The notes under the pieces are model-generated. The model was given only the letters and a program-made list of their open reading frames with translations. It was not told the DNA's origin and did no database searches. A stretch of DNA of 64,000 nucleotides from Chlorops oryzae. Lineage: Eukaryota; Arthropoda; Insecta; Diptera; Chloropidae. Of the stretch, positions 13,582-58,026 are shown one piece after another (the first letter of the stretch is position 1; each line of letters opens with the position of its first letter). The translations under genes and the position numbers were made by a program. Location of the stretch: contig CM035807.1 of NCBI GenBank assembly GCA_020466095.1, forward strand, positions 76,959,367 to 77,023,366. Reading direction: 5' to 3'.

Positions 13582-14801
13582 CACAGTGGGGCCGCTCCAT
13601 ATATTTCTTGGAAAAAAATAGGAGTGTTTGCAGAGCATTGAAATTTTGCAGAAACACTTCTGTGGGCTTAATTAAGATATTTTGAGGAAATCTTGGAAAT
13701 CCTCCCACTGCCACGCCCACCTCCTATATAAGTGCAGAAGTCAAAACTTTTGTTTTCGGACCTAGGGACTTGAAATTCGGGACACTTCTTAATTGAGTTC
13801 TCCTCAAAAAAAAAGCTAAAAATAATGCGGCTGCCACGCCTACTGTTGGTTTAACGCCCATCGGAAATTGCAGATTTTACATGTTTTTATTTCCTATCTA
13901 GCATTATATGGAATTTTCACATAAAATAAAGAATTTTAATTTTTTTCAAAAGCTTAAACATTAGTTGTCTGCATTCAAAAGAAGATTATACCCTCAACAG
14001 CCTTCCGCGAACGGATATTAGCCTTTGAAATCACCGAAAATATCTAACAAATACATTCGCTTTTCTAGTAAAGCAAGCCAAGTTAAAGTGTTTCATAGAA
14101 AGATATTGATGTTAAATATGTTTTTTTTTACATTGAAATGTTATTAAATTTCGTTACGCCTACATATTCGTAAACAAAAACAATGTTTCATTTATAAATC
14201 GTTCCATGTTTTAATTACGTAAGACCTAAAAGTATGCCCCTTTTTTTGTCTTATTGAGCATTTGTATGAAATATTGCTGTGACTTTAGAAATTCAAATCG
14301 ATGTTACTTACAGAAAAGGTATTAGAAGGTGATTTTTTTTGTTTAAATTGAAAGTATAGACTCGTACCTTTCATTTTTATATAGTTAGAGGGCTAAGCAA
14401 GGCAAAGCACATAAAGTTTTTTTCCAACAAAATATGAGAAGTTGATATTTTTTACTCTTATTTCTGGCAAATTATAATAATTATTCTACTTTTCTAATTT
14501 TAATAATTTTGTTTTTACATGAAAGAGTAATTGCTATATTTCCACCAAAAAATAAAACAAAGGCAAAAACTTTGGATTTTCACATGAAAAATGTTCTCTA
14601 TTTGGACTACAATTTTAATCTGAAATTTATTGAATAACATTCCCGTGACTTTTGTTAGTTTTTTTTAATAAAATTTTCAATTTTCATAAAAAAGAATGTT
14701 GAATTCCTCATATCCAAACATTTGTTTACAAAAGTGAATCATTAAAATTTTGAAATTCAAAAATTGAAAAATCCTATTTTTGCCACCGATGCCCCACTGT
14801 G
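13582..14801. mobile_element. Transib-like element with 23-RSS-like left and 12-RSS-like right ends
   Basis: The element is 1220 bp and flanked by a perfect 5-bp target duplication CGCCA (13577-13581 and 14802-14806). Each end starts with CACAGTG. At the left, a 23-bp spacer (13589-13611) separates the heptamer from AAAAAAATA. At the right, read inward on the minus strand, a 12-bp spacer (14794-14783) separates it from CAAAAATAG. Heptamer, nonamer, spacer asymmetry and GC-rich 5-bp duplication are hallmarks of Transib/RAG-type elements. No transposase ORF is present, so it is non-autonomous. Interior words such as gcaaagcacataaa are shared with the 19956-20976 copy. Confidence 0.8.
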
Positions 14802-15734
14802 CGCCAGTTAAACTGACGCACTTTTTGACATCCTGTGCGGAAGCACATTTCCTTTTTTATTTCTTATTTCTTATATTATGCTGCTAGCAAGTCGTCCCCG
14901 AGCTGAGTCAGTTATCAGCTTCCTAGATATCGTATTCTATTTAAAGTCATTAACGATGGAAAATGGAAAAATGAAAACTTTCGTAATTAAATTATTTGCA
15001 ATTTAAACACGACGCGTCGTTGGCTGCAGAGAAAGTTAACCCGAAAAATGCCCGCGGACAGCAATCTGGCTCGCAATTTACAGTCACAATATGCACGCTC
15101 CATGGAGGTGTAGCAATCACACGATCTGGTCCGAACTCCAAACTGCACGACAACGAGGAAGAATTAAGGAATAAAAATTGAAAAAAATGCAATTTCGTGT
15201 GTTCTTTTAATGAGTCACGCTCTGAGCTGATCGTCCCGCACCGCTCATCGCTCGCAGCTCATTGCCCGTTGCCCATTGCCCATTGGACTGCGTGCGTAAT
15301 TATGCATGAGGTTTTCATGTGGAAGAACTCCTCCACTGTGGCAACTCGAAGGGATGGCGGCAATAAAGAGTTTAAATGCCCTCAGCGGTCAAGCTGTATT
15401 GTAACCTGTTGCTTGGGGGGAAACTTTCATTGGAATGCTATTGCACGGAATCTAGAATTGGGGGCAGCCGAAACCGGTTTAAAACAAAATAGTTTAATCA
15501 TAATATTGGGAGTTGTTATGGGAATTTGATACTGATTGGGGTGGATATCTTCTAAAATTCAGCATTAACTCAATTCTTTTCCGATTTGCGCTCTCTATAC
15601 TATATAAACATTCAAAAATACGCGCAAAAGTTTACTGTTACTTTTGGAATGTAATTACTTCATAAATATTATTTTGACATCGGTATTTTTGCTTTTAACA
15701 CCAGAAATGCTTGTACTGGAGGCATTAATCGAAA
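14802..15734 (+). other. Intron, no gene seen
   Basis: No gene recognised. ORFs at 14992-15529 on both strands overlap each other in GC-richer sequence but carry no domain, and their codon use is unremarkable. Confidence 0.4.
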
Positions 15735-16245
15735 AGAAAACAAGGAAGGATGTTATAATCAGGCGATCCTCACAATACAATACCCCACACAGATATAAAA
15801 AAATGTTATAACACGCCGAAGACGACCACCTTTAAGACTTTTAAGACGAGGTATTCTAGAGATTTTTAAGGCCATCAGGGGTCCCATATGCCGACATTTG
15901 TTCCATTTCTTTATGAAAAGCGATCTTTTTCTACGCCCATTTTTCAAGATTTGTTGAAACTAATCGCTCAAAATACAAATTTCATTGAAATATATCGGAA
16001 AACTCTGATTTTGGAGCAGTTTTGGGGATTCTTTTGGCTTGATCTTACTCATGTCGCCGCCAATAGGCGTTACGGATAGCTAAATTCCTTCGATAAGATT
16101 CATATACAGACCAACCGACAGATCTCCTGGTGACGCTGATCATTTCTATATACATATATTTTGTCTATCTCGACTGGTTCTGGATGATAAACACATACGC
16201 ACAAATGCAATATACTCTAGACACAGACACGTGTCGGATATAACG
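15735..16245. repeat. Dispersed fly repeat, family 2
   Basis: It begins near aaggaaggatgttataatca and ends near cacgtgtcggatataacg. Its first 170 bp resemble 55411-55570 (ttttaaggccatcaggggtc-type words). Its tail (about 16130-16240, containing tggtgacgctgatcatt and tgtctatctcgactggttct) resembles 59385-59515. No coding capacity. Boundaries are approximate. Confidence 0.55.
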
Positions 16246-17915
16246 AGAAAATATATTTTTCTGCTCTATGGATATCCAAGAACTATGTATTCTTGTTTGC
16301 TTTCTACAGCCCTTAGATTTTTTTAATTAACAAACCTCTAAAAAAAAAATTACGAATTTCCATTCTATTTAATTTTTTTTTTAAACAATTCTTGTTAGTC
16401 AATCGGCATCTTATTGAAATGCAAATCGATTCAATATGCCATGCCAAATTGCGATGCGCCTAAAAATATGCTGTCGTATTTTTCCCTAGCAAACAAGGAA
16501 TTCCAATTTTTTGGATAAGGTCCAAGTTTCCAATAAAGCGGGCGTTGCGCCGATATGACAGTTTTAAGTGAGTGCTTTCGAGTTCTCTGCTGCATAATCG
16601 AGACTTGACAATTCAGTTAGAAAATCCCCAACGTTTGGTGGTGCGGCGCAAATATTTGTTTTGTAATTAAAATATCGATTTGAGCCCTTCACAACATGAA
16701 ATATGAAAATTTCTGTTCTTCAAGAAAACTTTCCTTTGAAAATTGGTAAACAAAATTGCTGGGGATTTTCGTGAAAACAAAAGAACAAAAACAAAAAACA
16801 AAAAAATTATAACCACTCGTGTCACCGGAACAATGTCGAAATAAGCGCAAAACAAAAGGACGAAAATAGAAAAGGACGCATATGTATACGGTTCGTGAAT
16901 AGAGATGGTTGGCGGAAGCGAAGAAGGGAAAACATCATCAGCAACAAAATGAAATAGAACGAAACAAAATGCGGAAACAATCGTAACGGAAGGTGGCAAT
17001 TTAATAAAATGCTCGAGTGAGTTTCAAGTATTTTGAGCAAGAAGACGTTGCATACTTTTTGGCGCAATAGCGTATTGTTGCCGCTACTCCGCTGGCATCG
17101 TCCTCCTCGTCGTCGTCGTCGAAGTCGTCGTCTTCGTTGTTGTCGCAGTTTGAATTCCTGACATACGTTGTATATGCTTTTATTGTTGTTTCCTGTAGTG
17201 TGTCGAGTTGTCGCAATGCTATTCTTCAACGTTACATCCGCAAACTCGTAACCCCTCCTTGCCATTGTTTTCTTCATCTACGTTTTCGTCACCGTCTCCA
17301 TCTCCACCGCCGTCTCTGGTTTGGTCTGCGTCATCAGCAGGACGATGATCATTGCAACTTTGCTGCAGCATTCAGCATTTGAAGATGAAATTGTGCTCAA
17401 TGATTTGGCGTCATGATGGGCAAACCGAGGAGGAAATCTCTCATGTCGCAGTGTTATGATGTGTGTCTATCGTCCTTAATACACTTAACTGGATTTATAT
17501 AATTTTTTGTTTTCTACATTTCATATTGTTTTTCCGACTTTTTCCAACTTTTTGCCCCCACATCTTTGTAAGTGATTTCGCTTGTTTATTTCTTTTTCGT
17601 TATTTGGATTTTAACAAGCGGATTTTCGAATGAAAAGAGTCGAAGAAAACCCTTCGCGACATCATCATTAAAATCGAAATTAAGCGCAAGAAACCTTGAT
17701 TATTTTTCGTTTAGTATTGTGAGAGGAATTTTAAGATTTTCCTGGGTGATCAAACTTATAAACACTCCGTAATTTCTCCCCTCTGTACTGCGCTGTGAGT
17801 GCGTCTTAGGACGCTTTTTAATTTGTTCGAGAACCACTCGAGGTTCGTCCGAAATAGAAAATATGTATGCTTAGAAACAAATATAGAAATATATAGTGCC
17901 ACCAGTACCTATATA
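16246..17915 (+). other. Intron, no gene seen; GTC-rich trinucleotide tract
   Basis: A cgtcgtcgtcgtcgaagtcg-type tract at about 17100-17150 produces an artefactual acidic ORF on the minus strand. The overlapping minus-strand ORFs at 16667-17277 are low-complexity. Nothing else could be supported. Confidence 0.45.
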
Positions 17916-19202
17916 TTAGGTGTAGTAAAAAGAAATCCATTATTTTTCCAATAGATGGCGTTATTTATCTGCATCTCGCGTTGTATAAGTCCGATCGTGT
18001 TCCGCTAGGGGGCATTAGAAAGATGACAGTTCCTACTAAAAAAGCTTTTTTGACACTTTTTTGATTGATTGATTCAGTTTTGTTTGAGAGCTTGTCAAAG
18101 ATGGACATCAGCAAAGAGAAAATTCGCTACATTTTACAGTTTTTCTTCGATAAGGGAGAAAACGCAAGCCAGGCGGCTGAAAATGTGAATAGCGTTTATG
18201 GACCTGATACTGTAACAGCCAATCATGCGCAATTTTGGTTTCGTCGATTCCGTTCCGGTAACTTCGATGTCAAGGATGCACCACGCACTGGAAGGCCAAT
18301 TGTCGAAAATGTCGATAAAATCATGGAAATTATCGAGTCCGACCGTCATGTTAGCACTGTTTCGATTGCAAAAGAGCTAAAGATTGCACAAAAAACCGTT
18401 TGGAACCATTTGAATAAGGCTGGATACACAAAGAAGCTCGATGTATGGGTGCCACACGAGTTAACGCAAAAAAACTTCATAGACCGAATTTCCATCTGCG
18501 AATCGCTGCTGAACCGCAACAAAATCGACCCATTTCTGAAGCGGTTGGTGACTGGTGATGAAAAGTGGGTCACTTACGACAACGTCAAGCGAAAACGGTC
18601 GTGGTCGAAACACGGTGAACCGGCGGAAACGGTGGCCAAGCCAGGATTGACGGCCAGGAAGGTTTTGCTGTGTGTTTGGTGGGATTGGCAGGGAATTATC
18701 TACTATGAGCTGCTCCCATACGGCAAAACTCTTAACTCGGAACTCTACTGTCAACAATTTGACCGTCTGAAGGAAGCAATCGCCCATAAGCGGCCAGCTT
18801 TGGCCAATAGGAGAGGAATTGTGTTCCATCAGGACAACGCCAGGCCACACACATCGATAGTGACTCGCCAGAAGCTCCGGAGTTTGGTTGGGAGGTTCTT
18901 CTGCATCCACCTTATAGTCCGGACCTGGCACCAAGTGATTACCATCTGTTCCTGTCCATGGCGAACAATTTTGCTGGTGAAACATTCGCTTCAAGAGAGG
19001 CTTCTGAAATTCGACTGTCTCAAGTTTTTGCTAATAGGAACGAGGGCTTCTATGAGAGAGGCATAATGAAATTACCTTTAAAATGGCAACAAGTTATCGA
19101 ACAAAACGGCGCATATTTGACCTAAATCGGGTCATTTTAACTATCTTAAATAAAGCCCTCAATTTAATGCAAAAATAATGGATTTCTTTTTACTATACCT
19201 AA
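17916..19202 (+). mobile_element. mariner-family DNA transposon, almost full length
   Basis: The element is 1287 bp, the usual mariner size. Terminal inverted repeats of about 32 bp (17916-17947 and 19171-19202) start TTAGGTGTAGTAAAAAGAAA on the left and match the right end with one early mismatch (G/A). TA dinucleotides flank both ends (17914-17915, 19203-19204), as expected for mariner targeting. It carries one transposase gene in the + orientation, broken by a single-base frameshift. High TIR identity suggests a fairly young insertion. Confidence 0.92.
18101..19125 (+). pseudogene. mariner transposase, single-frameshift pseudogene
   Basis: It would catalyse cut-and-paste transposition at TA sites. 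The chosen start MDISKEKIRY at 18101 fits the family better than the in-frame ATG at 18065. Visible features: an N-terminal helix-turn-helix region, the linker motif WVPHEL, the first catalytic Asp in TGDEKW and the second in HQDNARPH. After about 18885 the frame is lost by one base, a likely one-G deletion in ttggttggg. The conserved SPDLAPSDYH motif with the third Asp (34 residues after the second, the D,D34D signature) is read in the next frame and continues to a TAA at 19123. The total of about 341 codons matches family length. As sequenced it cannot give an active enzyme, but a sequencing indel is possible because other parts of this window show homopolymer errors. Confidence 0.9.
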
Positions 19203-19955
19203 TATAATCCAGCCCTTCTCCACCAGTGCATTTTCCCGCGCCTGACTCTCTGCTATTGTCATAAAATTCAATTGAATACTTTGAATTTCGAGACTATAAA
19301 CAATTAAGGGTGTATTTGAAGAGTTACACTTAGTATTTCTTCTGATTTCGAGAATAAATGATCAGTTTTGCAGTACCCAAACGCTGTCAAGGACTTCTCA
19401 AGTGCAGTCAGTATACTACAGAGTTCAAATTTGTTTTCTTTATTTTAATCAAATAAATTTTATGGTTGGAGAGCTTTGTGCTGAAAATAAGAGGAAAAAT
19501 TAAAAAAGTTTTTGCTATTTGTATCCACCAGACGCAGTTTATTCAGCCCTATTCTTAATGAATAATTCTCGGAAATTCTACAAATTTTTCTCCGCAGAAA
19601 AGGGAGGTGTTCCAAACGTCAATAATAGGGAGAATGTGATAGCCTTTGCTTAAAAATGTTCGAAATTCTCGCTCCCCTTGTATTCCCTTCCCAGGGAGAA
19701 TTTTGTTCAAATCCGGAGCGATGAATTGCTAAAGCTGGCATCCCGCTATCTGCGCAAATAGCACAATGTTCGCCAATTTTTATCGGTCCGTATCGGCACA
19801 AATTTCAACAATGTCCACAGACACTTTTGAGGCTCACATTGCCGTCGCATATTGTCAAAAAGATATCGGGGAACAATAAAATTGGGACAAAACTCGTCCA
19901 AGCCAATCACACTTGTCAGCATCAGAGTTCAAAAATTGCGTTCACACTATCGGCG
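19203..19955 (+). other. Intron; left part of an outer inverted-repeat element
   Basis: No gene. From about 19735 the sequence (catcccgctatctgcgcaaa, then cgccaattttt) is matched in inverted orientation by about 20985-21035 (aaaaattggcgcatt, then tgcgcagataatgggatccc). The Transib-like copy at 19956-20976 therefore appears to sit inside another inverted-repeat element of about 1.3 kb. Confidence 0.45.
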
Positions 19956-20976
19956 CACAGTGGGATTGCTCCATACATCGTGCGGCAAAAAATAGAAGGA
20001 ATAGTCCTATCACAATGAAAATTGGTATCCGGATGTAAATTGAGGTCATTAAGATATAAACTAAAATTTATCGAAATCGGTTCTCCCCTCCGGGTACCCC
20101 CATAGACCCCCACATGCAGTTTTCTATGGCAGCTACATCTAAAACTCAACCGATTTTAATGAAACTTTGTCAGAATGTTGTTTATACTCAAAAACGAATA
20201 TATACAAAAAAAGGTTCAAATCTGGAAGTCCCTAGGGGTACTTCCACTGGATAACTGCCTTTTCAGTATAAATGGCATCATAGTTTCGTATGTTCTCACA
20301 TTCGTAAACAAAATTTTTAATATAATGTTTTGTTTTTGTAATTTCTTAGTTAGTTCTTAATTTCTTATAAACATTGCCATCAGAAATTATAATAAAGCGT
20401 TAATGAATACTGATCATCCTTAACATATGCAATGATTTTTTCTTAATATCCAGACATTTTCGCGGTGATTTTTAACATAAAAATGGACTTTATCGAGACA
20501 ATCGTAAGTGGGCGGTAAATTTTTTTCATAGATCGTTAGAACAGACTCCAGACTTTTATTTTTTATCAACTAGAAGACAAAGCACGACAAAGCATATAAA
20601 CTTTTTGTCCATTGAAAAAAGGAAAAGCGAAATTTTCGAGGTAGAATTTTTGATAGCCCACTTCCTCTTCGTTATTCAATAAAATGCCGCAATTTTTAAT
20701 TCCTTTTAAAAATCAAACTCTTAATTTTAATAAAAAATCAACTTTATAGCAACAGTGGTAGATTTAATCCGAAAAAAATGAGAACCAATTTTTTCAATTT
20801 TTCGAAGAAAAAACTTTCTTATCTTTAGCTTAATTTTTTATATAAAAAAATTATGTTTTTTGAAAAAACAGATTTGAATTATTCTTATCTAGAGTTTTCT
20901 CAGTTAGATTAAATCGACAAATCATAAAATTAGGATGGTCAAAAAATCCTATTTTTGCCGCTGAAATCTCACTGTG
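19956..20976. mobile_element. Transib-like element with 23-RSS-like left and 12-RSS-like right ends
   Basis: The element is 1021 bp with a perfect 5-bp target duplication CGGCG (19951-19955 and 20977-20981). Left end: CACAGTG, 23-bp spacer (19963-19985), then CAAAAAATA. Right end inward: CACAGTG, 12-bp spacer (20969-20958), then CAAAAATAG. It has no transposase ORF. The interior shares words with the 13582-14801 copy (gacaaagcatataaactttt versus gcaaagcacataaagttttt). It is nested in an outer inverted repeat. Confidence 0.8.
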
Positions 20977-25449: not shown

Positions 25450-27004
25450 TATGCATTCTCAAAAATTGAAGAATAATTTTGACTAGCTTAGGATCATGAG
25501 TCATGAGTCATGATTCATGACGTATACGTAACCATACCATATGTCCGATTTTTCGCTGGACAGTTCGTTTTTTCTAAGCCGATACAGCGGTCATGCGAAC
25601 ATATTTTAAATCATGATTTGTCATGCGATTGTACTTTTTTTAGAAATATTCCCACAGCCCATCATTTTTGAATTCAAATTTTTCAAGATCCGACAAACGA
25701 CGAGTACCATTGTGAGGGGTAGGTTCTCTACATCCACACCCTTCGTCTCCCCTATAATCCGAAACATTGCCGGCAATAGTTGCCCTAATGTAAAAGGGCA
25801 CATTGACAAGTTTGATTTAAATTGGCTTGTTGTGACGCTGAAGATTTTGGTGAAGAATAATTGTTTTTTATTCACTTAAAATCTGGTGATTTGCACTCTC
25901 AAAACTTAAATGGTTAGTTGTATTTGGAAATTTCACAATTGTTAGTTCTGAGACCGAAAAATTCAATTTGTTTGAACTGAAATAATGGATTTTTGTGTAA
26001 ATATATACTTAAAAGTTTGTCCGTTTTTTGTACATTTTTTTAAATTTAGCGTACAGCAAAATAAAGTTGTTTTTAACATTTGCCTGTTTTTTTTTTTTTT
26101 GCAGAAGCGAGATGGTAACTGTACGTATACGGTTTATTTTAAAATTAGGATTTATTAAGTACATTGTACTTCATAAATATTTAATTCGCGTTTTCAAAAA
26201 ATTACAATTTAAAGTCCTTGGTATCTTTTTGATGAGCTATTTTGTGGTCCCTATACTGGTCCCTATATGGTTGCAACAAATATATCGATATGTATGTATA
26301 TGTAAGAAATGCTGCAACACTTCTGTCAAATTTTGAAAAAACCAAAGTAAATAAACAGGCAATGCCACACGCAAACGAAAAATTCCCTACAAACTAAAAA
26401 AAATCCCCACAATTCTTTACGTTTTTCCCTACCACAAATATCGTTATATATTTGTTTTAATAATATGCCTCTTGCATACAAAATTGTATGAGTAGCCATT
26501 AATATGGTAGGCTAATATTTTTGAGAATCTTTCATGGTAGTCTGGAACTCCGAATCGTACTAAAGTCATATGAAATTTTTTTTTTTTTTTTCAAAAATGT
26601 TTCTTTTAAAAATTAAGTTTGTTTGTTGTGGTTCAAGTAAAAATGATTTCATTAAAAATATGAATAGGCATTATCTTGTAGCGGTAAATAAAACGGTTTT
26701 CAATTTATTCAAAAAAGCCTATACAAATACTATTTCAATTTTCAAATTTGTACACTATCGACACTTAAAGATAGCTTCGACCGAACTTTTTCACATAAAC
26801 ACAGGTTGGCATAGTTTTTATTTTGTCTTTTTAATTTTATGACAACCAAATTTATACAAAATTCATTAAATATTTTGGAATACATCACAAATTCCGTACA
26901 TTTGCCGATTTTAAGAAATCTGTACTTTTGTGCCTACAAGTCATTTTTTGTTTAAAAAATCCCTAAAAATGTTTAAGGAAATTTCCCTACAATTGGCAGC
27001 CTTA
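25450..27004 (+). other. Intron, no gene seen
   Basis: AT-rich sequence. Small Phe/Lys-rich ORFs (for example 26028-26336 and 26570-26842) have no domain and match the base composition. A tandem gagtcatgagtcatgattca motif lies near 25498-25520. Confidence 0.45.
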
Positions 27005-27400
27005 AGCCTGAAATCCACTATAGAGTTTTTTACGTAGAGAAATGTGTGTAGAGTGTAGAGAATGTACCTTTGTTGTATACACTGAAGACCGTCTCTACAA
27101 TTCTGCAGCTCCACATAGAGCTGCCGTCGACATATTTAGAGTAGAGCTCTTCCATGTGCTCCATGGCTATTTTAACCGCAAAAGAATGTTTTCTCTACAA
27201 CTCTACATTAGAGAAAATTACTTTGGCAGTGTATGTAGTCGTGGAGCACATACTACAGCTCTACTCGAAATATGTCGACGGCAGCCTTACGTAGAGCTTT
27301 AGAATTGCAGAGACGGTCTTCAGTGTATACAACAAAGGTACATTCTCTACACTCTACACACATTTCTCTACGTAAAAAACTCTATAGTGGATTTCAGGCT
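27005..27400. mobile_element. MITE with about 100-bp near-perfect inverted arms, TTA target duplication
   Basis: The left arm starts AGCCTGAAATCCACTATAGA and extends for about 100 bp to gtctctacaattct. The right arm is its almost exact reverse complement, ending at 27400. More distant inverted similarity continues towards the centre (tgccgtcgacatattt and aaatatgtcgacggca). TTA flanks both ends (27002-27004, 27401-27403), consistent with a PIF/Harbinger-type 3-bp target. It is non-coding. As intronic RNA it would fold into a long double-stranded hairpin. Confidence 0.8.
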
Positions 27401-27912
27401 TTAAAAACAGATGAGTGGCTGTCAAACCAAATCCTCTCAATTGCGATATTGTCGTGTGAACGCTTGGATTTCGATATGGATTTCACGAAATCCAAGTGCC
27501 GAAATCCCGGGATTTCGATGCTCGTCTGAATGGCATATTAGGGCTATCATCTACGGGAGATGGAAGTATTTTTGATGTAAACATATCGAGCCCTAACCGC
27601 CAAATTGACGTAAGTGACAAAAAACAAATTTTACAGGAGAGCGTTTTTTCGGAACTTGTTTGCATTGACTGGCAAATAAATTATAAAACTTATAGTGCAA
27701 TATCTCCGTTAATATTGAGCATATCGTCGTAATATTTTACTAGGTGATGAGTTTCAGGCTGAAGAACATATTTTCATCAAAAAGTCAATTTCGGAAAAAA
27801 TGTCACTTGCGTCAATTTGGCGGTTATGGCTCGATAATAACGGCGTTTCCGCGCTATAGTAGGCCTCATTTGCATTACCTTGTAAATGAAAGGCAAGAGT
27901 TTTTTGAGACTT

Positions 27913-36482: not shown

Positions 36483-37051
36483 CACAGTGTTTCGAATCCA
36501 TATGTTTTTTTGCCAAAAATAGGAGCTGCCCTAGAGCAATGAAATTTGGCATGGACTTTCAGAAGTTTTGAAAAAAATCGTAGAAATCGAATCACCCCAA
36601 ATTTCAAATTTACGACCACCTGACTCGAAATTCAGAAGAGAATTAATGTTGTGCTACAAAGTTGAAAAAAAGTAGCAAATATGCTGTCACGCCCACTCAA
36701 AGTTAGGAAATAAATCGTATGAAAACGTTTAAAACATTTATGAATGTTGAATTATTTTAAAAATTTAAAAAGTGTGTAATTAAAAAACAAAAATCTTTAA
36801 AAAACCATCCCAGCCTTGCCAAAAAAAAAAAAAAAAAAATTTTAGTGCTCAGACAATGAGAGTCGTAGTCTTCGACTCGGCTTAAGAGCTATATTTGAAT
36901 TTTTCAGGTGTAACATCCACAAAAAATTGTTTCTAGCTCTAATATTTTGGGTTTCTTCTAGTTAAGTAATTCCCTTTCCAGTGATAGCAAAATTTTAAAT
37001 ATTTCGTGACCATGAAAATTTTGATTTTTGTCTACTATACGAACCACTGTG
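36483..37051. mobile_element. Transib-like element, short copy
   Basis: The element is 569 bp. Left end: CACAGTG, 23-bp spacer (36490-36512), then CCAAAAATA. Right end inward: CACAGTG, 13-bp spacer, then ACAAAAATC, close to the RSS nonamer consensus. Spacers begin TTTCG and GTTCG at the two ends. The flanking 5-mers differ (ccttg and cgtcg, 3 of 5 match), so the target duplication has decayed or the ends come from different insertions. No transposase is present. Confidence 0.65.
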
Positions 37052-41010: not shown

Positions 41011-41399
41011 ACTTTTATTCTGAAATCCCCATAATTCATCTTAACTAATTTACTACAATTTTTAAGTTCCGGTATTTCGAATTTACCCGCCTGTGCCACC
41101 CTACTTAACACATTCGTGCAGAATTCTCCGAACACTGGTTCCAACCTCCTCCAACCAGAAATATCTGTCAAAGATTGTCTATAAGTATCGATAGCTTTCC
41201 CATTCCGAGAAGGGTTAGAACTTTATTCCAATTGCAGTAGATATACTGCACTTTTTCAATATTTGACATCTACTAAACATTGCGTATTGTTCCCTGCATA
41301 AAATTTTTTTTGGCCCCCCAATATTTTTGGAACTTGCCTCCCCTGGTGATGTTCATGTGCTTGAATCTCATTGGCTACTGAAATTTAAATAAGGTTTTA

Positions 41400-41488
41400 G
41401 CGTCAGTTGAGCGTTAGCATGAAGTGGCGTAGAAGACGAATGCTCGACTCAAAATCCGAAGATCGCGGGTTCGATCCCTGGCTGACGC
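41400..41488 (+). ncRNA. tRNA-like sequence, copy A
   Basis: The ends GCGTCAG and CTGACGC pair over all 7 bp like an acceptor stem. The B box GGTTCGATCCC is perfect, with TTCGATC as the T loop. Its T stem pairs only in part (4 of 5 counting G-U). ctcaaaa could be an anticodon loop (CAA, Leu), but the anticodon stem pairs poorly. The length is 89 nt. I read it as a tRNA pseudogene or the head of a SINE rather than a proven tRNA gene. The identical sequence recurs in copy B. Confidence 0.45.
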
Positions 41489-41764
41489 GAATTGTTAAAA
41501 ATTGGTTTTAAAAATTTTCCCATGTATTCAAAGAGAAGACAAAGAAGAGAGTTTCCAACTGACATTTAGAGATAAGAGAATTTGCTACCTAAAATTCCAA
41601 AAATTCCAAAAATTCTTAGAAGCAAACTCTGGTTTTCAGCAGCTACCTTGTAGCATGTGCAACTAAAGTATTTCTAGTATTTCACTTGTCAAAACGTCAA
41701 AAACAAATGAATCATTCTCATTTTTTGAAGGCATTGTCCCCGTTTAAACAGGGAGACAAAACGC

Positions 41765-41850
41765 GAGACACTGGAAGGAAACACATGAGAAAAACGGAGA
41801 TGGAATGCCTTTCGTCTCTGTCACTCTAATGTGTTTCCTTCCAGTGTCTC
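41765..41850. repeat. Perfect 22-bp hairpin, copy A
   Basis: The arms gagacactggaaggaaacac+at and at+gtgtttccttccagtgtctc are exact reverse complements separated by 42 nt. It is conserved in copy B at 45273-45358. The size would suit a small MITE remnant or a short-RNA precursor; there is no evidence of expression. Confidence 0.7.
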
Positions 41851-42308
41851 TCTTAATCTAAACACCGACATTTTAGCCTGATAAATAATAAATAAAATAA
41901 ATAAAAAAATCCTGTAGGACAAAATAAACATCCCCAACTGACTAGTATTACACTGGTACAAACTGCACTAGTGCTTTCCTATACATATTTTATGCTGATT
42001 TTCCATAGAATTTTATATGGACGGGAGTATAGAAAAGAACTAGTACTGGTGGCTTTTGCCCTAGTGAAGAACTTGTTGTAATTGGTGCAGGGATATATAC
42101 CAATGGCATTAACGTACAAATCTACCAAAATCGTATAAAAATAAATACTTTGAAGTAAATGACTTTATTTCCCTTTTTAATAACAAAAATCTACAAAAAA
42201 TATATAATGAATTTCACAAACATTTTTCAAAAAAAATATTTATTATTTCTTCGTCTAGTTTTACTGCAGCAACGCCTTTATACATAGCTAATGCTATGTT
42301 CATGCTTA

Positions 42309-42864
42309 AGCTGCAATCATTCATGGCATAAGACGGCATAACAGAACATAACATAACATAAAATAACATAAGCGCTTTTTGAGTAGTCAGTGAAGACATA
42401 AGAAAAACATAAGAGCACAGAAGAGGCAATGTTGTAATTTGCGCACATTGCGGAAAGGGGGTAAAAATTATTTCCACAATTTCTTAAGAAATAATTAACA
42501 AACGCTTGTAAATCAGTTCGAGACATGCTGAAAAGTAATAAAATATATTTTGCTTTCATAAAAAATTATATGCTTAATACTATTTTAATATATTACAACA
42601 TTAGTAATTGTGGCTTTTCGAGATTTTCATAAAAAGGGCAAATGTGGCAGCTTTGGGAAGGAGTTGGCAACACAAATTCAAATCAGCTGGCTCGAACTTA
42701 CATAAGACGGCATAAGAAAAATCTGTTTTCTACAGCTTCTTATTTTCTGTTATGTTATGTTATGCCATCACTGACCACTTGCATACAACATGTATTGAAT
42801 AGATAGAATCAGCTGATTATGCTATGTTATGTTATGCCGTCTTATGCCATGAATGATTGCAGCT
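42309..42864. mobile_element. MITE with TTA target duplication, present in copy A only
   Basis: The left end AGCTGCAATCATTCATGGCA continues to taagacggcataaca. The right end is its reverse complement, ending in gcagct. TTA flanks both sides (42306-42308, 42865-42867). Interior (cataa)n and (atgtt)n words extend the self-complementarity. The element is 556 bp and non-coding. Copy B has the uninterrupted sequence gttcaatgcttagcccc, an empty site for this insertion. Confidence 0.8.
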
Positions 42865-42872
42865 TTAGCCCC

Positions 42873-43049
42873 ATATAGAACTATAGCTGCAACTTCGGCC
42901 AAATTTTGGCGCGTTGTGGCATGATTTGGTGAAAAAGTTCAACTGTGGTGAACCACGCCATAAGCCGAGTATTGTGGTGAACCACGTAATAGTAAGTGTG
43001 GTGTACCACGTAATAGCTTTTGGCCGAAGTTGCAGCTATAGTTCTATAT
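42873..43049. mobile_element. Second small inverted-repeat element in copy A
   Basis: The arms atatagaactatagctgcaa(cttcggccaaa) and (tttggccgaag)ttgcagctatagttctatat are perfect inverses of about 31 bp. The interior has three similar gtggtg(a/t)accacg words. gcttagcccc-type sequence lies on both sides (the left copy is split by the 42309-42864 MITE), so this element probably inserted first. It is absent from copy B. Confidence 0.65.
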
Positions 43050-43889
43050 GCTTAGCCCCAAATAGCACTATAGGCATATAGTACTATAGGTCTAACTCTT
43101 CTTCTTCCTAATCCCTGCAATGTGTTAGAGCTACGCTGCTTTAACATAGGCATATAGCACGAGGAAAAGAAAAGCACGCTATGGCAGCGAAATATTTAGC
43201 TCTGCTGTGGTGAAATGCGTTGCCACTTTTTTTTATTAATTTTGGGAGATTTTCGAAAACATCACATATAAAATATCTACCAAACTCATAAAATGCTATT
43301 AAAAGCTTCAGAAACACAAAAATAATTAAGGAAACTCAATATAAGGGAACAATAGAAGTTGTTTTTTAGTCCTACCCTGCCCTAACAACTTTTTAATCAC
43401 ACTGTTTCAGTAAAAATACTACATTGTATGCACAATGAAATTCGTAGCCGTAGTTAAAAATGTATTTCAATTTATTACAAAACGAAAACATTCGTGCACA
43501 TTAAGCAACAACACATCGTTATACATTTAATAAAGCTGCACATATGAACTTTTAAAGCTATATAAAAAACCGAGCCGACGCCGTGTTTCTTTTATAATTT
43601 TCTTGCAAGTGGCATCATAGTGCCACTTTTTGTCTGCCCGTATTGTTGTTGGTAGCTTTCTGGTGAATTTCTCGAAAGAGTTGAGTTTCCTATCCCTGCC
43701 TAATGGGGAGTTTCTTATTAGCGGCAGAGGCTTTTCGACGTCGACAGTTAGACCTATAGCATATAGCACTACTCGCTCGAAGCTGATATGAACGCTTTGA
43801 GGTAAAGTATCGGGTTAAGAACTTAACCCCTATAGTGAGAACATTGCATTATGTTCACTTTACTTCTTCGATATCTCAGTATAGGCTCT

Positions 43890-44268
43890 AATAGCATGTC
43901 CTCACTATAGCCCAAATTAAGTAATTTCAGAGTTTTCGTAATTTCGCTTGAAATTACACAGAATTTGCGTCATTTCGCCATACTGGAACCTGTCAAATGA
44001 AATTACTCTACTGTCGTCATTTCACCGAAATTATTCATGAAATTAATATAAAACCGCATGCAGCCCTGATTTTGTAGTAGATTTTGCTTGAATCCTCTGT
44101 AAATGCATCCCTGGAACTTTGAATGAAATTTCGTTCATTTGAAATCTTGTAAACGGAAAGCAAATGAAATTACGATTACCGAAATTACGACTATGTGGAC
44201 GGGTTTGAGGTTGAAATTACGAAAACACCGAAATAACTTAATTTGGGCTATAGTGAGGACATGCTATA
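43890..44268. mobile_element. MITE with TAGCATGTCCTCACTATAGC arms, copy A
   Basis: The left arm TAGCATGTCCTCACTATAGC continues as ccaaattaagtaatttc. The right arm (gaaataacttaatttgggct, then atagtgaggacatgcta) is its reverse complement with one or two mismatches. Internal gaaattacg words occur in both orientations. A second copy lies at 47779-48151. Confidence 0.75.
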
Positions 44269-44270
44269 AC

Positions 44271-44515
44271 AGGCCCGTAGCAACCATAGGGGCAGAGGGG
44301 GCTTTGCCCCCCACGCATTTTTGTTTTTGCCCATGAAAAAAATTAAAAAAAGGAGAAAAATAAATGACAATCGAAAAATAATGATAATCAATCATATTTA
44401 ATATAATTGCACTTTGCGATTTTTTAGTTTATTGAATCTTAAAAGAATGGCCCCAATATTTCGGCAACTGAAAAAAATATTTTTAAATTTTTGTAAAGAT
44501 ATTCTAGAATATCAC
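44271..44515. other. Spacer between duplicated blocks
   Basis: A 245-bp unshared segment starting aggcccgtagcaaccatagg, followed by a run of Gs and Cs and AT-rich sequence. Its beginning resembles sequence just before copy A (about 40950). No gene. Confidence 0.5.
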
Positions 44516-44906
44516 ACTTTTTATTCTGAAATCCCCATAATTCATCTTAACTAATTTACTACAATTTTTAAGTTCCGGGTATTTCGAATTTACCCGCCTG
44601 TGCCACCCTACTTAAACACATTCGTGCAGAATTCTCCGAACACTGGTTCCAACCTCCTCCAACCAAAAATTCTGTCAAAGATTGTCTATAAGTATCGATA
44701 GCTTTCCCATTCCGAGAAGGGTTAGAACTTTTTCCAATTGCAGTAGATATACTGCACTTTTTCAATATTTGACATCTACTAAAACATTGCGTATTGTTCC
44801 CTGCATAAAAGTTTTTTTGGCCCCCCAATATTTTTTGGAACTTCCTCCCCTGGTGATGTTCATGTGCTTGAATCTCATTGGCTACTGAAATTTAAAAAGG
44901 TTTTTA

Positions 44907-44995
44907 GCGTCAGTTGAGCGTTAGCATGAAGTGGCGTAGAAGACGAATGCTCGACTCAAAATCCGAAGATCGCGGGTTCGATCCCTGGCTGACGC
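44907..44995 (+). ncRNA. tRNA-like sequence, copy B
   Basis: Identical to 41400-41488: acceptor-like ends GCGTCAG/CTGACGC and B box GGTTCGATCCC. It has the same caveats about weak anticodon and T-stem pairing. Confidence 0.45.
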
Positions 44996-45272
44996 GAATT
45001 GTTAAAAATTGGTTTTAAAAATTTTCCCATGTATTCAAAAGAAGACAAAGAAGAGAGTTTTCCAACTGACATTTAGAGATAAGAGAATTTTCTACCTAAA
45101 ATTCCAAAAATTCCAAAAATTCTTAAAGCAAACTCTGGTTTTCAGCAGCTACCTTGTAGCATTGCAACTAAAGTAATTTCTAGTATTTCACTTTGTCAAA
45201 AACGTCAAAAACAAATGAATCATTCTCATTTTTTGAAGGCATTGTCCCCGTTTAAACAGGGAGACAAAACGC

Positions 45273-45358
45273 GAGACACTGGAAGGAAACACATGAGAAA
45301 AACGGAGATGGAATGCCTTTCGTCTCTGTCACTCTAATGTGTTTCCTTCCAGTGTCTC
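45273..45358. repeat. Perfect 22-bp hairpin, copy B
   Basis: Same arms and loop as 41765-41850. Conservation only reflects the duplication and is not independent evidence of function. Confidence 0.7.
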
Positions 45359-46524
45359 TCTTAATCTACACCGACATTTTAGCCTGATAAATAATAAATA
45401 AAATAAATAAAAAAATCCTGTAGGACAAAATAAACATCCCCAACTGACTAGTATTTACACTGGTACAAACTGCACTATGCTTTCCTAAACATATTTTAAT
45501 GCTGATTTTCCATAGAATTTTAATATGGACGGGAGTATAGAAAAGAACTAGTACTGGTGGCTTTTGCCCTAGTGAAGAACTTGTTGTAAATTGGTGCAGG
45601 GATATATACCAATGGCATTAACGTACAAATCTACCAAAATCGTATAAAAAATAAAATACTTTGAAGTAAATGACTTTATTTCCCTTTTTAATAACAAAAA
45701 TCTACAAAAAAATATATAATGAATTTCAAAAACATTTTTAAAAAAAAATATTTATTATTTCTTCGTCTAGTTTTACTGCAGCAACGCCTTTATACATAGC
45801 TAATGCTATGTTCAATGCTTAGCCCCATATAGCACTATAGGCAAATAGTACTATAGGTCTAACTCTTCTTCTTCCTAATCCCTGCAATGTGTTAAGAGCT
45901 ACGCTGCTTTAACATAGGCATATAGCACGAGGAAAAGAAAAGCACGCTATGGGCAGCGAAATATTTAGCTCTGCTTGGTGAAATGCGTTGCCACTTTTTT
46001 TTATTAAATTTTGGAGTTTTTCGAAAACATCACAAATAAAATACTACCAAACTCATAAAATGCTATTAAAAGCTTCAGAAACCACAAAAATAATTAAGGA
46101 AACTCAATAAAAGGGAACAATAGAAGTTTTTTTTTTAGTCCTACCCTGCCCTAACAACTTTTTAATCACATTGTTTCAGTAAAAATACTACATTGTAATT
46201 GCACAATGAAATTCGTAGCCGTAGTTTAAAAATGTATTTCAATTTATTTACAAAATGAAAACTTCGTGCACATTAAGCAACAACACATCGTTTACATTTT
46301 AATAAAAGCTGCACATATGAACTTTTAAAGCTAAATAAAAAAACCGAGCCGACGCCGTGTTTCTTTTATAATTTTCTTGCAAGTGGCATCATAGTGCCAC
46401 TTTTTTGTCTGCCCGTATTGTTTGTTGGTAGCTTTCTGGTGAATTTCTCGAAAGAGTTGAGTTTCCTATCCCTGCCTAATGGGAGTTTCTTATTACGGCA
46501 GAGGCTTTTCGACGTCGACAGTTA

Positions 46525-47650
46525 AGGTAAAACACTATAGCAACTGCGCCGAAAGCCAACTGCCCAATAAGAAATCCCAAATAGGAAAGGATTGGGAAAC
46601 TCCAACACTTTCAGAAATTTACCAGGCTACAAACCAATACGTACAAAGCATGCAAAATTTGGCAGAAAAATGAAATTGTGCCATTGGGAAGAAAATTATT
46701 TAAAAACAAGGGTGGCCTTTTTTTTATTTATAAAATTTTTTTGCAATTAAAAATAAAATTTGTTTAAAGGAAAAATTTTTTTTTTTAAAAATTTAAATAA
46801 TTTTTTAATTGGTTTGATTTTTTGCAAAATTTTATATTTTTCGAAACCGGGAAAAAATTTTGGGCAGGTGGCTTCCAACTTTATTGCCCAATTTTTTTCC
46901 CATTTAAATTTTTTTCTGATTTTTACAATTTTAAAAGGGGAAATTTTTTTTATGTGGGATTTTTAAAATTTAATTTAATTAAAAAAATGAAACCATTTCC
47001 CACCTTTAAATATTTCCTCTAGGTTTTCTTTTCCTATATATGCCTTTTAAAGGCTTAACCTTTTAAAAAATTGAGGGATTAAAGGAAAGTTTTAGAATAA
47101 GTAAAAAAACTTCCCAAAAGGCTTTCGGTTTTGAAAGGTTTGAAGGTTTAAATTAGTGGATTAGAAAAAGGCTTTTCACACAACTTGCCGACTTAAAAAC
47201 CAATTCCGGTTTTTTTATAAAAAAAAAGAAAAATTCCAAAAATTCATTTTTATTAATTTCCAATATCCTGCAGTTAATTTAAACAAAAGAACAATTAAAC
47301 CTTTTTTGTCAAAAAAAAATTTCCAATTTTTTCAAGTTGTTTTAAAATTGGCAAAAATTGTTTGAAACAAAAAATTTATTTACAAAGGAAAACGTTTTCG
47401 TTCAAACAAACCAAGAAAACCCAAAAGCCGTGGGATTTTCCTAAACTTAAATAGGTTTAAAAAAGGAATTTTTTCAAGTTACAAAGGGGAAATTGGCCCA
47501 AAATCTACATTGAAAGGTGCTTTTCTTCAATAAGCTTTAATTTTGTTGCAAAAAGACATTTAAATTTTTAAAGGCCAAATGGCTAAAGGCTTTTAGGGCC
47601 AAGCATGGCCCCAAATTGGTAAAGGTTTTAAAACCTTTTATAATAAGCAT
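46525..47650. other. Probable assembly artefact: noisy reverse complement of adjacent sequence
   Basis: Between cgacgtcgacagtta (46510-46524) and cattactcgctcgaagctga (47657 on) the sequence is a poor, indel-rich reverse complement of the bases just before it. It carries aataagaaatcccaaatagg versus the reverse complement of cctgcctaatgggagtttct. It then follows the reverse complement through gaaaattat and later ttttcttttcct, tatatgcct and gggatta. The composition (long A, T and G runs) is unlike the flanks. ORFs in it are meaningless. Confidence 0.6.
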
Positions 47651-47778
47651 TAAAGCATTACTCGCTCGAAGCTGATATGAACGCTTTGAGGTAAAGTATC
47701 GGGTTAAAACTTAACCCCTATATGAGAACATTGCATTATGTTCACTTTACTTCTTCGATATCTCAGTATAGGCTCTAA

Positions 47779-48151
47779 TAGCATGTCCTCACTATAGCCC
47801 AAATTAAGTAATTTCAGAGTTTTTCGTAATTTCGCTTGAAATTACACAGAATTTCGTCATTTCGCCATACTGGAACCTGTCAAAGAAATTACTCTACTGT
47901 CGCATTTCACCGAAATTATTCATGAAATTAATATAAAACCGCATGCAGCCCTGATTTTGTAGTAGATTTTTGCTTGAATCCTCTGTAAAAGCATCCCGGA
48001 ACTTTGAATGAAATTTCGTTCATTTGAAATCTTGTAAACGGAAAGCAAATGAAATTACGATTACCGAAATTACGACTATGTGGACGGGTTTGAGGTTGAA
48101 ATTACGAAAACACCGAAATAACTTAATTTGGGCTATAGTGAGGACATGCTA
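47779..48151. mobile_element. MITE with TAGCATGTCCTCACTATAGC arms, copy B
   Basis: Second copy of the 43890-44268 element, carried within copy B of the tandem duplication. Inverted arms and interior match apart from small indels. Confidence 0.7.
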
Positions 48152-48154
48152 TAA

Positions 48155-49285
48155 CTAAAATTCAAATTCTTTAATTTCTACCAAAATTGGTAGAACTCTA
48201 CGAGGAGGGCAGCACTCATGATACAAAGAAAACTGGGCAACACTGATAACAAAAAGAAACGCAACCCTGCAATATTGTCAATGTGCCCGTTTACACGAAC
48301 GTCACATCGTTCAGCAAATTGGTGCTTGTCGGAGTGCGGAGAGCGGGGATTACACTCCCCACTATGTGTATGCCACGAAAATTGAATGTCGAGACATAGA
48401 GATTTTCATTAAGGCCTTGACTGAGGGTGTTTCATGATATTCACGCTTGAATAAAATTACTCAACCATCAAGAACATACACAAAAGATTTTTCAGCACGT
48501 CAAGATCGGATTTCTGCTTTTGATTCGTTTCTTCTTTTTTACAAAAGCATGTGACAATAAATTAAAACTAGAAATAGCCAAATCGTAACTATCGTATCAT
48601 GTACTGCGTTTATACAGCAGTTAATCGCGAGTAGCGAAGTCCCCGTTTATACGTCAATCCAGAAAATTAAAAAAATTTTTATGCCTCCAGACTGAAAATA
48701 AAATTAAGTGGAAGCATACACATACGAAAACAAATGATTGGAGTTTTTACAATCTTCCTTTGCACAGCGATAAAATGTCCGATTCGGATATGGTAATTCT
48801 CCTGTCAGAGAAATTAATGCAAAAGCGGAGGGATTTTCTTATGAAATGCGATTGTTTCCCTATGATTGAAATAAACACAGCTGCTGGGTCGTTACAAGCA
48901 CTACTCACTACTTACGAATTTTTATTTATTTTTGTGAGTTAGCTTATCACGAGTAAGATTTTTTTTCTCTCCGTTTATGCGGTACAATTCCGTACTCTCT
49001 AATCAAAAAAGGGTTAAGCTTAATAAATCCTCGTTCAGATTCTAAATATTTAAACAATGTAATAAAAATTCGTACTATTTCATTTACTGTAATTTTTAAT
49101 GCAACAATCGCGAAATCATATCATTATATTCAACATATTCCTTATAGGCACTCAAATTCAGTATTTAGCACGATGAATACAGAACTAAAAAATATACATA
49201 ATTTCAAAATTTCAGTCGTGTTGTGGATAGGGGTGTGGGTCCTTCATTGACATATTTTGAAATGGTCGCCTTATTATGAATGGAT
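48155..49285 (+). other. Intron, no gene seen
   Basis: AT-rich sequence without a recognised gene or bounded repeat. A 60-codon ORF at 48760 has no domain. Confidence 0.4.
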
Positions 49286-55100: not shown

Positions 55101-55410
55101 TCTGTCTTACACAGATTCTTGAACATGATAAACGATGAGCGGCAAATACACATAGATAGATATTGCATTTTACTCGGGCAAATATGCTTTTAAAGTTTAG
55201 ATGTGGTGTTGTTTTGTTCTACATGAGTAGCCATGGTCGAATCGTGTTCATAGGGCTGTTGGCTTTTAATGAATTTCAAACGGAGTTGTCCTCGTTTTTA
55301 TGCTTAAATTCAAATTTTCATTAACAAAATGGAGTGTTCTCTTGTTAGTGCCGACTCCTTATTATTATAGGAATTTTTAATCAAAATCTCTCCTTTGAGC
55401 ATTACAAAAC
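52126..55410 (+). other. Intron downstream of the last visible Bruno exon
   Basis: T-rich sequence with an ATT trinucleotide run at about 53261-53289. Two weak exon-like segments occur: 53586-53692 (good acceptor, modest donor) and 53972-53998 (microexon-like, donor GTGAGC). Neither encodes a known Bruno segment. No RRM3 coding sequence was found. Confidence 0.5.
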
Positions 55411-56010
55411 AAGTAAGGGTGTTATAGTCAGATGAGCCTGACAATAAAATACCAGACACAGCCACACATGTTTAAATAACTTATAAATTGCGTCCAAAAA
55501 ACAGGACCATTAAGAAAGAATATTCTATAGATTTTTAAGGCCATAAGGGGCCCCAAATACCGACTTGTTAAATTTTTTTTATGAACACTGCCCCTTTTCC
55601 ACGCCCACTTTCCCAAATTTTTTTAATTATAATCATAGCCTTACATATACGCTCAAATTCTAAATTTCATTGAAATATTTCGAAAAAGTCCGATTTTGGA
55701 GCTGTTTTGGGATTTTTGTAATAGGCCCTAGTACTGCAGGTACCCTTAATAATGGTCCGATCAAGAATTTTTTTAAGAAGATGTTTATCGCCATAGAGGA
55801 AGCACACATGCCAACTTTCATTCAAGTCGTAGGGTGTAGGAGACAATTTTCGAAAAACGCCCTTCTGCCACGCCCACTTTTCCAATTTTCAGAAATAACA
55901 TTACCTTTAAATAAGTTAACGTCAAATTTTATCGAAATATCTTGAAAAAATACGATTTTAGAGCAATTTTTGTGAAATTCATAACAGACCCTAGTACTGG
56001 ACTAATCTAG
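55411..56010. repeat. Dispersed fly repeat, family 2
   Basis: It starts near caagtaagggtgttatagtc and resembles the beginning of 15735-16245 (shared tagatttttaaggccat). cacgcccactttcc words occur twice at about 55600 and 55870, suggesting an internal duplication. The ORFs 55428-55885 on the minus strand are chance products. Boundaries are approximate. Confidence 0.55.
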
Positions 56011-56316
56011 ACGTGGGCGAGATGAATTAGCGAGGCCCTATAAAATTTTTTATAAGTAAATACTTACGGAATATGCCTGTATCCTTCAATCTTATGCTCG
56101 CTTACATCGGAGTCTGATTTATGCTTAAATATGCGGCTTAAGTTTAATTTACGGGCGTTTCTGGGATTTCGCCCATATTTTGTACATAGGCGTAGAATGG
56201 CCTACTAATTTCAAATCTGTAATCAGAATTGGCGTGTGGGTTGCATCTAGCTTAGAAGTTATAAACATTCAAATTTTGTATGGCAAATGTATACAAACTC
56301 ACTTTCAGCTACTGCG
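56011..56316 (+). other. Intron segment, no gene seen
   Basis: No feature beyond the ctgcg target site (56312-56316) of the adjacent Transib-like element. Confidence 0.5.
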
Positions 56317-58026
56317 CACAGTGTTTCGTCTCCATACATTCTCTGGCCAAAAATAGAAGGAGGGGAGTGGTCGTAGAGCAATGAAATTTGGTGGAAGTGT
56401 TAATATACCCCATATTAAGAAATTTTGAATAAATCGTAGAAATCCGCTAACTGCCACGCCCCCGCCCATATAAAGTGAGTTTCTAATTTCCACCGTTTTA
56501 ATGTTACAATGATGAATCTTGGTACATATGTTATTTGGGATAAAAAAAAATGCAGATCCCACTTTTTTTTTTAGGTGCCACGACCCCTTTACAAGGTACG
56601 CCCTTTCAAAGTCACAGTTTTCTAATTAAAATATGTGTATAATGCACACAACATTTTTTTACCTAATTCAAAATTTAACAATTTATTTTTGGTTTTCGAA
56701 ACAAAAAATATAAATATATCAAATTTATAAAAAGTTAAGATCAAACCCTCGGCCTACAAAAATTGAAAATTCGTGAAAAATCAATAACAAAAATTGTATA
56801 ACTTTCGCCCGTACGCTCCTTAAATAATCACTGCTGTTCGAAAATAATGCATTTTTAAATGGCAATTTTTCGTTCTTTTGTTTAAAAATATATACATTTT
56901 TAAATTGTAAGATTTATTTTTCATCCACACAAGAAAAATTATATAATAACAAAAACTACCAAATAATATATGTTTATAAAAAAATATAATAACAAAAATT
57001 GCAAAAAATAACAACAAAATATCACTCAAATGGACTATACTTCACTCCCGGAGCTTTCACTCTCTGAATCGTCTAATAGGAAAGCCTCGATTTCTATATC
57101 CATTGAACTTATGCTATCGGCGATATCATCGGCCAAAACATAATCTTCAATGTTCTTGCATAAATTTTGGTTTTTTGTACACAATGTTCTATATTTATGT
57201 ATTTTTGGCTCTGGCGACAGCAATAAGTGTTTAAAAATATCAATATTATTTTTGTATTTAATTTAATCCAAATTTAATTTAATTTAATCGAAATTAAACA
57301 TTTTATTTTTCACTTTTCAAAAGACGAACTGAGCCATTCAGAGTATCTTTTAAGAAAACGTTGTTTGTTGCGATTGTAAATAGTCCACTTGCTCCTCGAA
57401 AATGAAAGTTCCAAAAAACGTATATTTTTTTTATTACAGCTTTTTCTGTCATATTTTCCTTTTACATTATTTTCAAAGTATTCAAGCATTGCGTTTTTTC
57501 GCTCAGCACAGCCTTTACCAGATTTCGCTAGCCAAACATTGAATAAATAAGACTTTTTTACGTCAATTATTATCGCAGGCGGATGCATCTGAATTTTTGA
57601 TATCATATTGGACTTATTTTCAGAAAAAAAATTTAAGGTATGCTTTTTGACGTTTTTTTTAAACCTTTTCAAAAATTATTTTAACGTTTTTTTCTCTTTT
57701 TTTGATTTGCTTACGTTTCGGCAACAATTTAAAACATATGTTCAATATTAAAACAACAAAAACAAATTTATTTTAAAATTTAAACATAAAGGTCGAAACA
57801 CAATTGGAGCAACTGCAATTTTTCTTTCTTTTCTTTATTTTCAAAACTGTTATAGGAGCCACGTCAACTTTGACGGCCCGCAGTAACGAAACCGCTATAA
57901 CAATATTTAGACATATTTGGATTTCACTATACCAACATATTCCCAATAGAAACCCAACAAAATCCTTTAAAAATTCAGACATAGACGTAGATATTTTGTA
58001 TTTTTGGTCGCTCACGAAACACTGTG
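56317..58026. mobile_element. Transib-like element, longest copy (1.7 kb), perfect 12/23 ends
   Basis: Flanked by the perfect 5-bp duplication CTGCG (56312-56316 and 58027-58031). Left: CACAGTG, exactly 23 bp (56324-56346), CCAAAAATA. Right inward: CACAGTG, exactly 12 bp (58019-58008), CCAAAAATA. The two nonamers are identical, and both spacers start TTTCGT. The interior has minus-strand open stretches (57310-57672, 57773-58015, 57035-57223) of unknown function, in two frames. It has no full-length RAG1/Transib transposase (expected at roughly 600-700 residues), so it is a non-autonomous or decayed copy. Confidence 0.85.
57035..57672 (-). pseudogene. Unknown protein remnant inside the Transib-like element
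   Basis: A 120-codon open stretch (57672 to 57310) is Lys/Arg/Ser-rich and includes VWLAKSGKGCAERKNAMLEY and FSRSKWTIYNRNKQRFLKRY. A 62-codon stretch downstream (57223 to 57035) ends in an acidic tail, DDSESESSGSEV. The two are in different frames. I do not recognise the protein; the basic body and acidic tail could be remnants of a transposon-encoded DNA-binding protein. It could equally be chance ORFs in AT-rich DNA. Confidence 0.3.

Follow-up and report, generated by a model that had tools for sequence, protein, structure and literature searches.

Transib transposons and the 12/23 rule

The termini of Transib transposons start with CACWRTG. Asymmetry of the 12/23 type, in which an end resembling a recombination signal sequence (RSS) with a short spacer is combined with one carrying a long spacer, is attributed to Transib5 of Drosophila melanogaster and to Transib2, N1, N2 and N3 of Anopheles gambiae in the passage of PMC8355894 that cites Kapitonov and Jurka (2005), and the majority of Transib families are symmetric according to the relevant section of PMC8289069. 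Some Transibs are asymmetric, yet the structurally studied HzTransib of Helicoverpa zea is symmetric, a contrast that bears on how the 12/23 rule arose. The subject here is a stretch of 64,000 nucleotides from the dipteran Chlorops oryzae (contig CM035807.1, positions 76,959,367 to 77,023,366 of the forward strand; hereafter the window), in which four elements, E1 to E4, each combine a long-spaced (23-type) and a short-spaced (12-type) end. The transposons and an RRM exon, putatively of a CELF gene, would fit an insect source, probably a fly. With a probability of about 0.95, these are Transib cut-and-paste transposons of a long-end plus short-end group that is common in the genome; in three of them no coding sequence can be detected, and E4 retains a decayed transposase. 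Since asymmetric Transibs have already been published, the 12/23 pattern is not new and the present elements are further members; the statement of the initial annotation that such asymmetry has been noted for only some Transibs agrees with the cited passage of PMC8355894. What is added is the scale, the consistent pairing, and the presence of both asymmetric and symmetric Transibs with open transposase frames in one genome. No publication contrasting the latter two within one genome was found in a search that missed most subscription journals.

The closest described systems share some of these features and lack others. Like Transib5, Transib2 and N1 to N3, as far as the cited passage describes them, the elements belong to the Transib superfamily and carry an RSS-like heptamer and nonamer with spacers of 12 or 23 bp (±1). 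Unlike those, compared by description only, they show one architecture shared by several sequence clusters, and near-identical copies with open frames. The ends of HzTransib, in contrast to the present ones, are given as symmetric in the same section of PMC8289069. The heptamer CACAGTG is identical to the consensus of the vertebrate RSSs recognized by RAG1/RAG2, the nonamer resembles ACAAAAACC (the consensus quoted in that section), and, as in vertebrates, one 12-type end and one 23-type end are combined with a RAG1-like catalytic core. Unlike the vertebrate system, no RAG2-like gene is seen, judging by frame length in the parental element L062 described below, the short spacer varies from 11 to 13 bp by cluster, the sequence of the long spacer is conserved, and the ends belong to mobile elements rather than receptor loci. 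ProtoRAG of amphioxus and the RAGL transposons have the heptamer, a target-site duplication (TSD) of 5 bp and a RAG1-like enzyme in common with the present elements, but differ in possessing a RAG2L gene and, in amphioxus, in an asymmetry of 27/31 bp according to the part of PMC8355894 that treats them.

Four elements with unlike ends in the window

The coordinates in the initial annotation are exact for all four elements, as is its observation that each starts and finishes with CACAGTG; the eight termini account for 8 of the 14 occurrences of this heptamer in the window. E1 (13582..14801, plus strand, 1220 bp) is a non-autonomous Transib with the TSD CGCCA, a 23-type end at 13582..13620 (+; CACAGTG-N23-AAAAAAATA) and a 12-type end at 14775..14801 (−; CACAGTG-N11-GCAAAAATA). 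E2 (19956..20976, plus strand, 1021 bp) is likewise non-autonomous and is flanked by CGGCG, with its 23-type end at 19956..19994 (+; CACAGTG-N23-CAAAAAATA) and its 12-type end at 20950..20976 (−; CACAGTG-N11-GCAAAAATA). The shortest, E3 (36483..37051, plus strand, 569 bp), is non-autonomous and placed in Transib via its ends only (23-type at 36483..36521, +, CACAGTG-N23-CCAAAAATA; 12-type at 37023..37051, −, CACAGTG-N13-ACAAAAATC). No TSD is recognizable at E3, where the flanks CCTTG and CGTCG agree in 3 of 5 bases, and this is taken as decay. E4 (56317..58026, plus strand, 1710 bp) is a degenerate Transib copy with the TSD CTGCG, a minus-strand coding remnant, a 23-type end at 56317..56355 (+; CACAGTG-N23-CCAAAAATA) and a 12-type end at 57999..58026 (−; CACAGTG-N12-CCAAAAATA). 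Three of the four elements therefore have perfect, GC-rich 5-bp TSDs, as the initial annotation stated, and E3 has no clean one.

The left spacer of 23 bp and the left nonamers recur as annotated in all four elements. For the right ends, the 12-type assignment stands and the individual spacers do not: values of 12, 12, 13 and 12 bp had been given, whereas counting in the single register of NCAAAAATN yields 11, 11, 13 and 12. The discrepancy arose because two registers had been mixed, CAAAAATAG for E1 and E2, and ACAAAAATC or CCAAAAATA for E3 and E4. The supposition that the four copies form a single family is not upheld either. Once their ends and the subterminal block on the left (about 60–160 bp) are set aside, E1 to E4 are mostly dissimilar, and they sit in four separate clusters of a 40-element genome sample, the E2 cluster being the largest with 11 of the 40 elements. 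Their common feature is the end architecture.

Abundance and spacing of the ends in the genome

A genome-wide search for the 23-type end had been proposed, and was run on the 442-Mb genome from which the window derives. The pattern CACAGTG-N23-[AC][AC]AAAAATA occurs there 1164 times without mismatch, compared with 5 occurrences once it is reversed. Fourteen copies of CACAGTG in one window might suggest that the ends are chance matches to a 7-mer. As a control, inverted heptamers at most one base off, 200–5000 bp apart and flanked by an exact 5-bp TSD, were counted in the window and in five shuffles of it; three such pairs exist in the window, all with two exact heptamers, against 0, 0, 1, 0 and 0 in the shuffles. 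The shuffle control and the reversed-pattern counts together refute the chance explanation, whose probability is practically nil.

With an open spacer, the pattern has 1639 matches in the genome against 50 when reversed. Among the 100 matches listed, which cover the first 30 Mb of contig C1, the spacers are 23 (43 matches), 24 (9), 22 (2), 11 (12), 12 (8), 13 (1), 14 (14) and other lengths (11), and so fall in narrow bands rather than varying freely. The long-end pattern has no match in viral and prokaryotic contig collections, and no Transib-encoding contig was found in these collections.

Further types of end occur beside these classes. An end with a 14-bp spacer, for example at C1:9104823-9104852 (+), looks by eye like a long end lacking its mid-spacer. 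A 24-spacer family of long ends with the tag CACAGTGGTCTC has 67 matches, nearly all of long-end length (for example C1:17007745-17007784, +). Ends tagged with GTC give 131 matches against 0 reversed, and include further spacers of 16, 20, 22 and 28 bp.

Pairing of long and short ends

Pairing was assessed in a sample of 52 long ends, drawn from the window and from 48 of the initial 54 loci matched by the exact 23-bp pattern. To count as a partner, a heptamer had to be inverted and flanked by the corresponding 5-bp TSD; one mismatch was permitted overall and any spacer allowed. Such a partner is present for 40 of the 52 long ends, with spacers of 11 (24 cases), 12 (7), 13 (7), 10 (1) and 28 bp (1). 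The consistent combination of a 12-type with a 23-type end, which had been claimed from the window, thus extends to 39 of 40 TSD-matched partners in the genome sample, all of them spaced by 10–13 bp. The remaining partner, that of L030 with a 28-bp spacer, has the heptamer CACAGAG and no nonamer and is probably false; the likelier partner is an 11-spacer end that faces the long end at a distance of 1025 bp, although it failed the TSD test. Exact TSDs flank 36 of the 39 accepted pairs, with the consensus CGNCG. The difference between long and short spacer amounts to 10–12 bp in 38 of these pairs and to 13 bp in L019, a difference close to one helical turn, like that between the two kinds of RSS. 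Within a cluster the short spacer is fixed at 11 or 13 bp, and smaller groups have 12 bp.

The coordinates of the listed ends give a similar picture. Judged by coordinates alone, 13 of the 21 listed 12-type ends have a 23-type end facing them no more than 4 kb away, and none has another 12-type end facing it; two facing pairs of 23-type ends occur among the listed ends, each with a nearer 12-type end inside. This genomic pairing is compatible with a 12/23 cleavage rule, and also with simple inheritance of both ends.

A possible though doubtful alternative accepts the elements as Transib but not their asymmetry as RSS-like, such that the long end would be a larger subterminal binding block containing an A-rich stretch 23 bp in by chance, and the short end a shorter site. 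It would explain why the long spacer is itself conserved over clusters (CATA[CT]AT at positions 17–23 in nearly all of 40 ends), why similarity at the long end extends to about 60–160 bp, why the short spacer is 11, 12 or 13 bp depending on the cluster, and why long spacers of 24 bp occur. The short ends, however, share a NCAAAAATN-like motif and not the block, and this motif keeps a fixed distance within every one of the four clusters with at least six members. Moreover, a symmetric Transib of the same genome has nonamer-like motifs 22 bp in at both ends and no CATACAT block.

Transposase remnants and parental elements

Coding remnants were sought among the 1323 frames of at least 30 aa in the window with hidden Markov models (HMMs) of 57 Transib homologues, one N-terminal and one full-length. 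The only frame below E=0.1 with the N-terminal HMM lies in E4 at 57313..57675 (−) and is a remnant of the N-terminal exon of a Transib transposase (E=1.3e-6; 4e-5 with the full-length HMM). A second frame of E4 at 57038..57262 (−), a possible remnant of the transposase C-terminus, scores E=0.096, which is not significant, and by eye looks like the C-terminal motif. A read-through of E4 found no homologue in a protein collection (0 of 1130 candidates at E≤1) because the fragment is too decayed, and its identity came from the HMM; neither a Transib nor a RAG1 chain was retrieved from the PDB by single-sequence searches with fragments of E4 and L017, whose matches were taken for chance. Six sampled 23/12 elements hold transposase remnants at E 4e-5 or better (L031, L038, L042, L009, L012 with the C-terminus and L017 with the N-terminus). 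The remnants are oriented from the short towards the long end.

The same orientation is found in the L062 element, which spans 3049 bp, is flanked by the TSD CGTCG, and has a short 5' end with a spacer of 11 bp (GCAGAAATT) and a long 3' end with a spacer of 23 bp (CAAAAAATA). Its transposase is encoded by a 551-aa open frame and, upstream of it, a further exon; a GT-AG intron of about 50 bp between the two was predicted by eye. The protein contains the motifs DGSSGH, TMLDGK and EEAEEARNKD. The catalytic core is like that of HzTransib (PDB 6PQN and related entries; E=1.1e-116, a fold match of a homologue), with far weaker matches to RAG1 (0.0036) and RAG1L (0.0044). The RAG1 Pfam model (PF12940) has 27 matches in the genome, 5 of them scoring above the curated threshold, whereas 14 control genomes yielded none. 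Transib membership, as initially proposed, is borne out by the E4 remnant, by the six other 23/12 elements and by this 23/11-ended element with an open Transib frame. On the evidence of the L062 protein, the 23/12 architecture stems from a Transib parent.

The search for an autonomous parent also bears on two other origins. CAC-type ends as such would suit the Chapaev or CACTA superfamilies, for which TSDs of 4 or 3 bp are expected; the 5-bp TSDs, exact in 36 cases, and the encoded Transib transposase refute this origin, which is left with hardly any probability, and no non-Transib parent with a 4-bp TSD emerged. Equally improbable is mobilization by a RAG-like transposon that also carried a RAG2-like gene. 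RAGL transposons do share the heptamer and the 5-bp TSD, according to the part of PMC7204232 concerned with them, but the L062 transposase is far nearer to HzTransib than to RAG1 or RAG1L, and the 3049-bp element has no frame above 100 aa besides the two transposase exons, judged by frame length only, with no RAG2 model run.

Searching the genome with the L062 protein gave at least 83 matches, some of which are pieces of a single copy (79 of 1473 first-look candidates were scored). Four are open and 100% identical across 550–551 residues, one is 100% identical with a stop, and one is 99% identical and open. Since these copies are near-identical, the L062-type parent was probably active recently. 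Many other transposase lineages are open as well. The L049 element, which spans 3057 bp and is flanked by the TSD CGACG, has equal ends of 22/22 and an open frame of 654 aa that matches HzTransib at E=8.3e-106 and the RAG1 Pfam model at 4.4e-7. L053 also has 22/22 ends by eye, with the TSD CGTCG, one heptamer reading CACATTG and a frame with an internal stop. Both ends were not found in L050 (a 1.1-kb piece) or in L052 (a 0.6-kb piece, 3' end only).

Proposed mechanism and relation to the 12/23 rule

For HzTransib, the relevant part of PMC6941560 describes cut-and-paste transposition in which the flank is closed as a hairpin and the transposon is left with a blunt end. By extension from HzTransib and RAG1, both ends of the present elements would be held by one transposase dimer, which would nick beside the heptamer, seal the flank into a hairpin while the transposon end stays blunt, and insert the element with a 5-bp stagger. 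Less certainly, the N-terminal part of the transposase, ahead of the catalytic core, may read both nonamers, and a spacer difference of about one turn might place both nonamers on one DNA face within a complex whose asymmetry resembles that of V(D)J recombination. In the P0013 model, residues 1 to about 88 form an ordered domain, followed by a low-confidence linker with a GRP motif and then by the core. Alignment of the HzTransib chains in the PDB begins at model residue 144 (entry residue 21), which leaves the exon-1 domain and the GRP region outside them; for most of residues 1–142 the comparison lists no match, which carries no weight as a negative. The N-terminal part is put forward as a candidate nonamer reader. 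As the symmetric L049 also has this part, it would account for the use of nonamers and not for the asymmetry itself.

Several points weigh against the assignment of E1 to E4 to a Transib group with one long and one short end, or against its likeness to RSSs. E1 to E3 have no transposase remnant among the window frames searched with the HMMs, and are assigned through their ends. In copies with six or more A, the left A-run allows a spacer of 22 as well as 23 bp to be read, and the constancy of the 23-bp spacer in the sample follows from the exact pattern by which it was chosen; long spacers of 24 (9 of 100) and 22 bp (2 of 100) exist among the matches listed. No partner was found for 12 of the 52 long ends, of which L001, L004, L007 and L046 were examined over 239–1539 bases on the partner side. 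Neither the 14-spacer type (14 of the 100 listed) nor the 24-spacer family has a facing partner among the matches listed. Finally, a profile of the GRP region retrieved no RAG1 chain from the PDB at E≤10, and the region has no detected similarity in sequence to the RAG1 nonamer-binding domain.

The genome houses both the asymmetric 11/23 L062, with near-identical and probably recent copies, and the symmetric 22/22 L049, with both frames open. Matched enzymes and ends are thus available to test the need for unlike ends without RAG2. It is tentatively proposed, as a possibility with the odds against it, that a transposase of the L062 type recognizes the heptamer as well as the nonamer at each end and is efficient only on a 12-type/23-type pair, without RAG2. 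If the enzyme does need unlike ends, the 12/23 rule would belong to insect Transibs, and would either predate the vertebrate rule or be convergent with it; the Transibs with symmetric 22/22 ends in the same genome would then show gain or loss of the rule within one enzyme lineage.

Other features of the window

A mariner element has a frame at 18065-19066 (+) encoding a 333-aa Mos1-type transposase (Pfam Transposase_1, 1.5e-26; HTH_48), with terminal inverted repeats at 17912-17968 and 19150-19206. Directly adjoining E4, the segment 58191-59438 (−) contains a frame resembling a non-LTR (non-long-terminal-repeat) retrotransposon, with a weak endonuclease/reverse-transcriptase match below the cut-off (PF14529, 1.7e-4). 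Repeat blocks spaced by 2.8–3.9 kb, mostly with 84–100% identity, occupy 41275-48155, and a fold-back repeat with 188-nt arms (88% complementary) and a 22-nt loop lies at 27004-27401. Two repeat copies starting with TTTTTTATACCCAGCGT are located at 11564-11653 and 63166-63255 (84%), and close to these copies are repeats that E1 and E4 also contain in their left portions (family D6).

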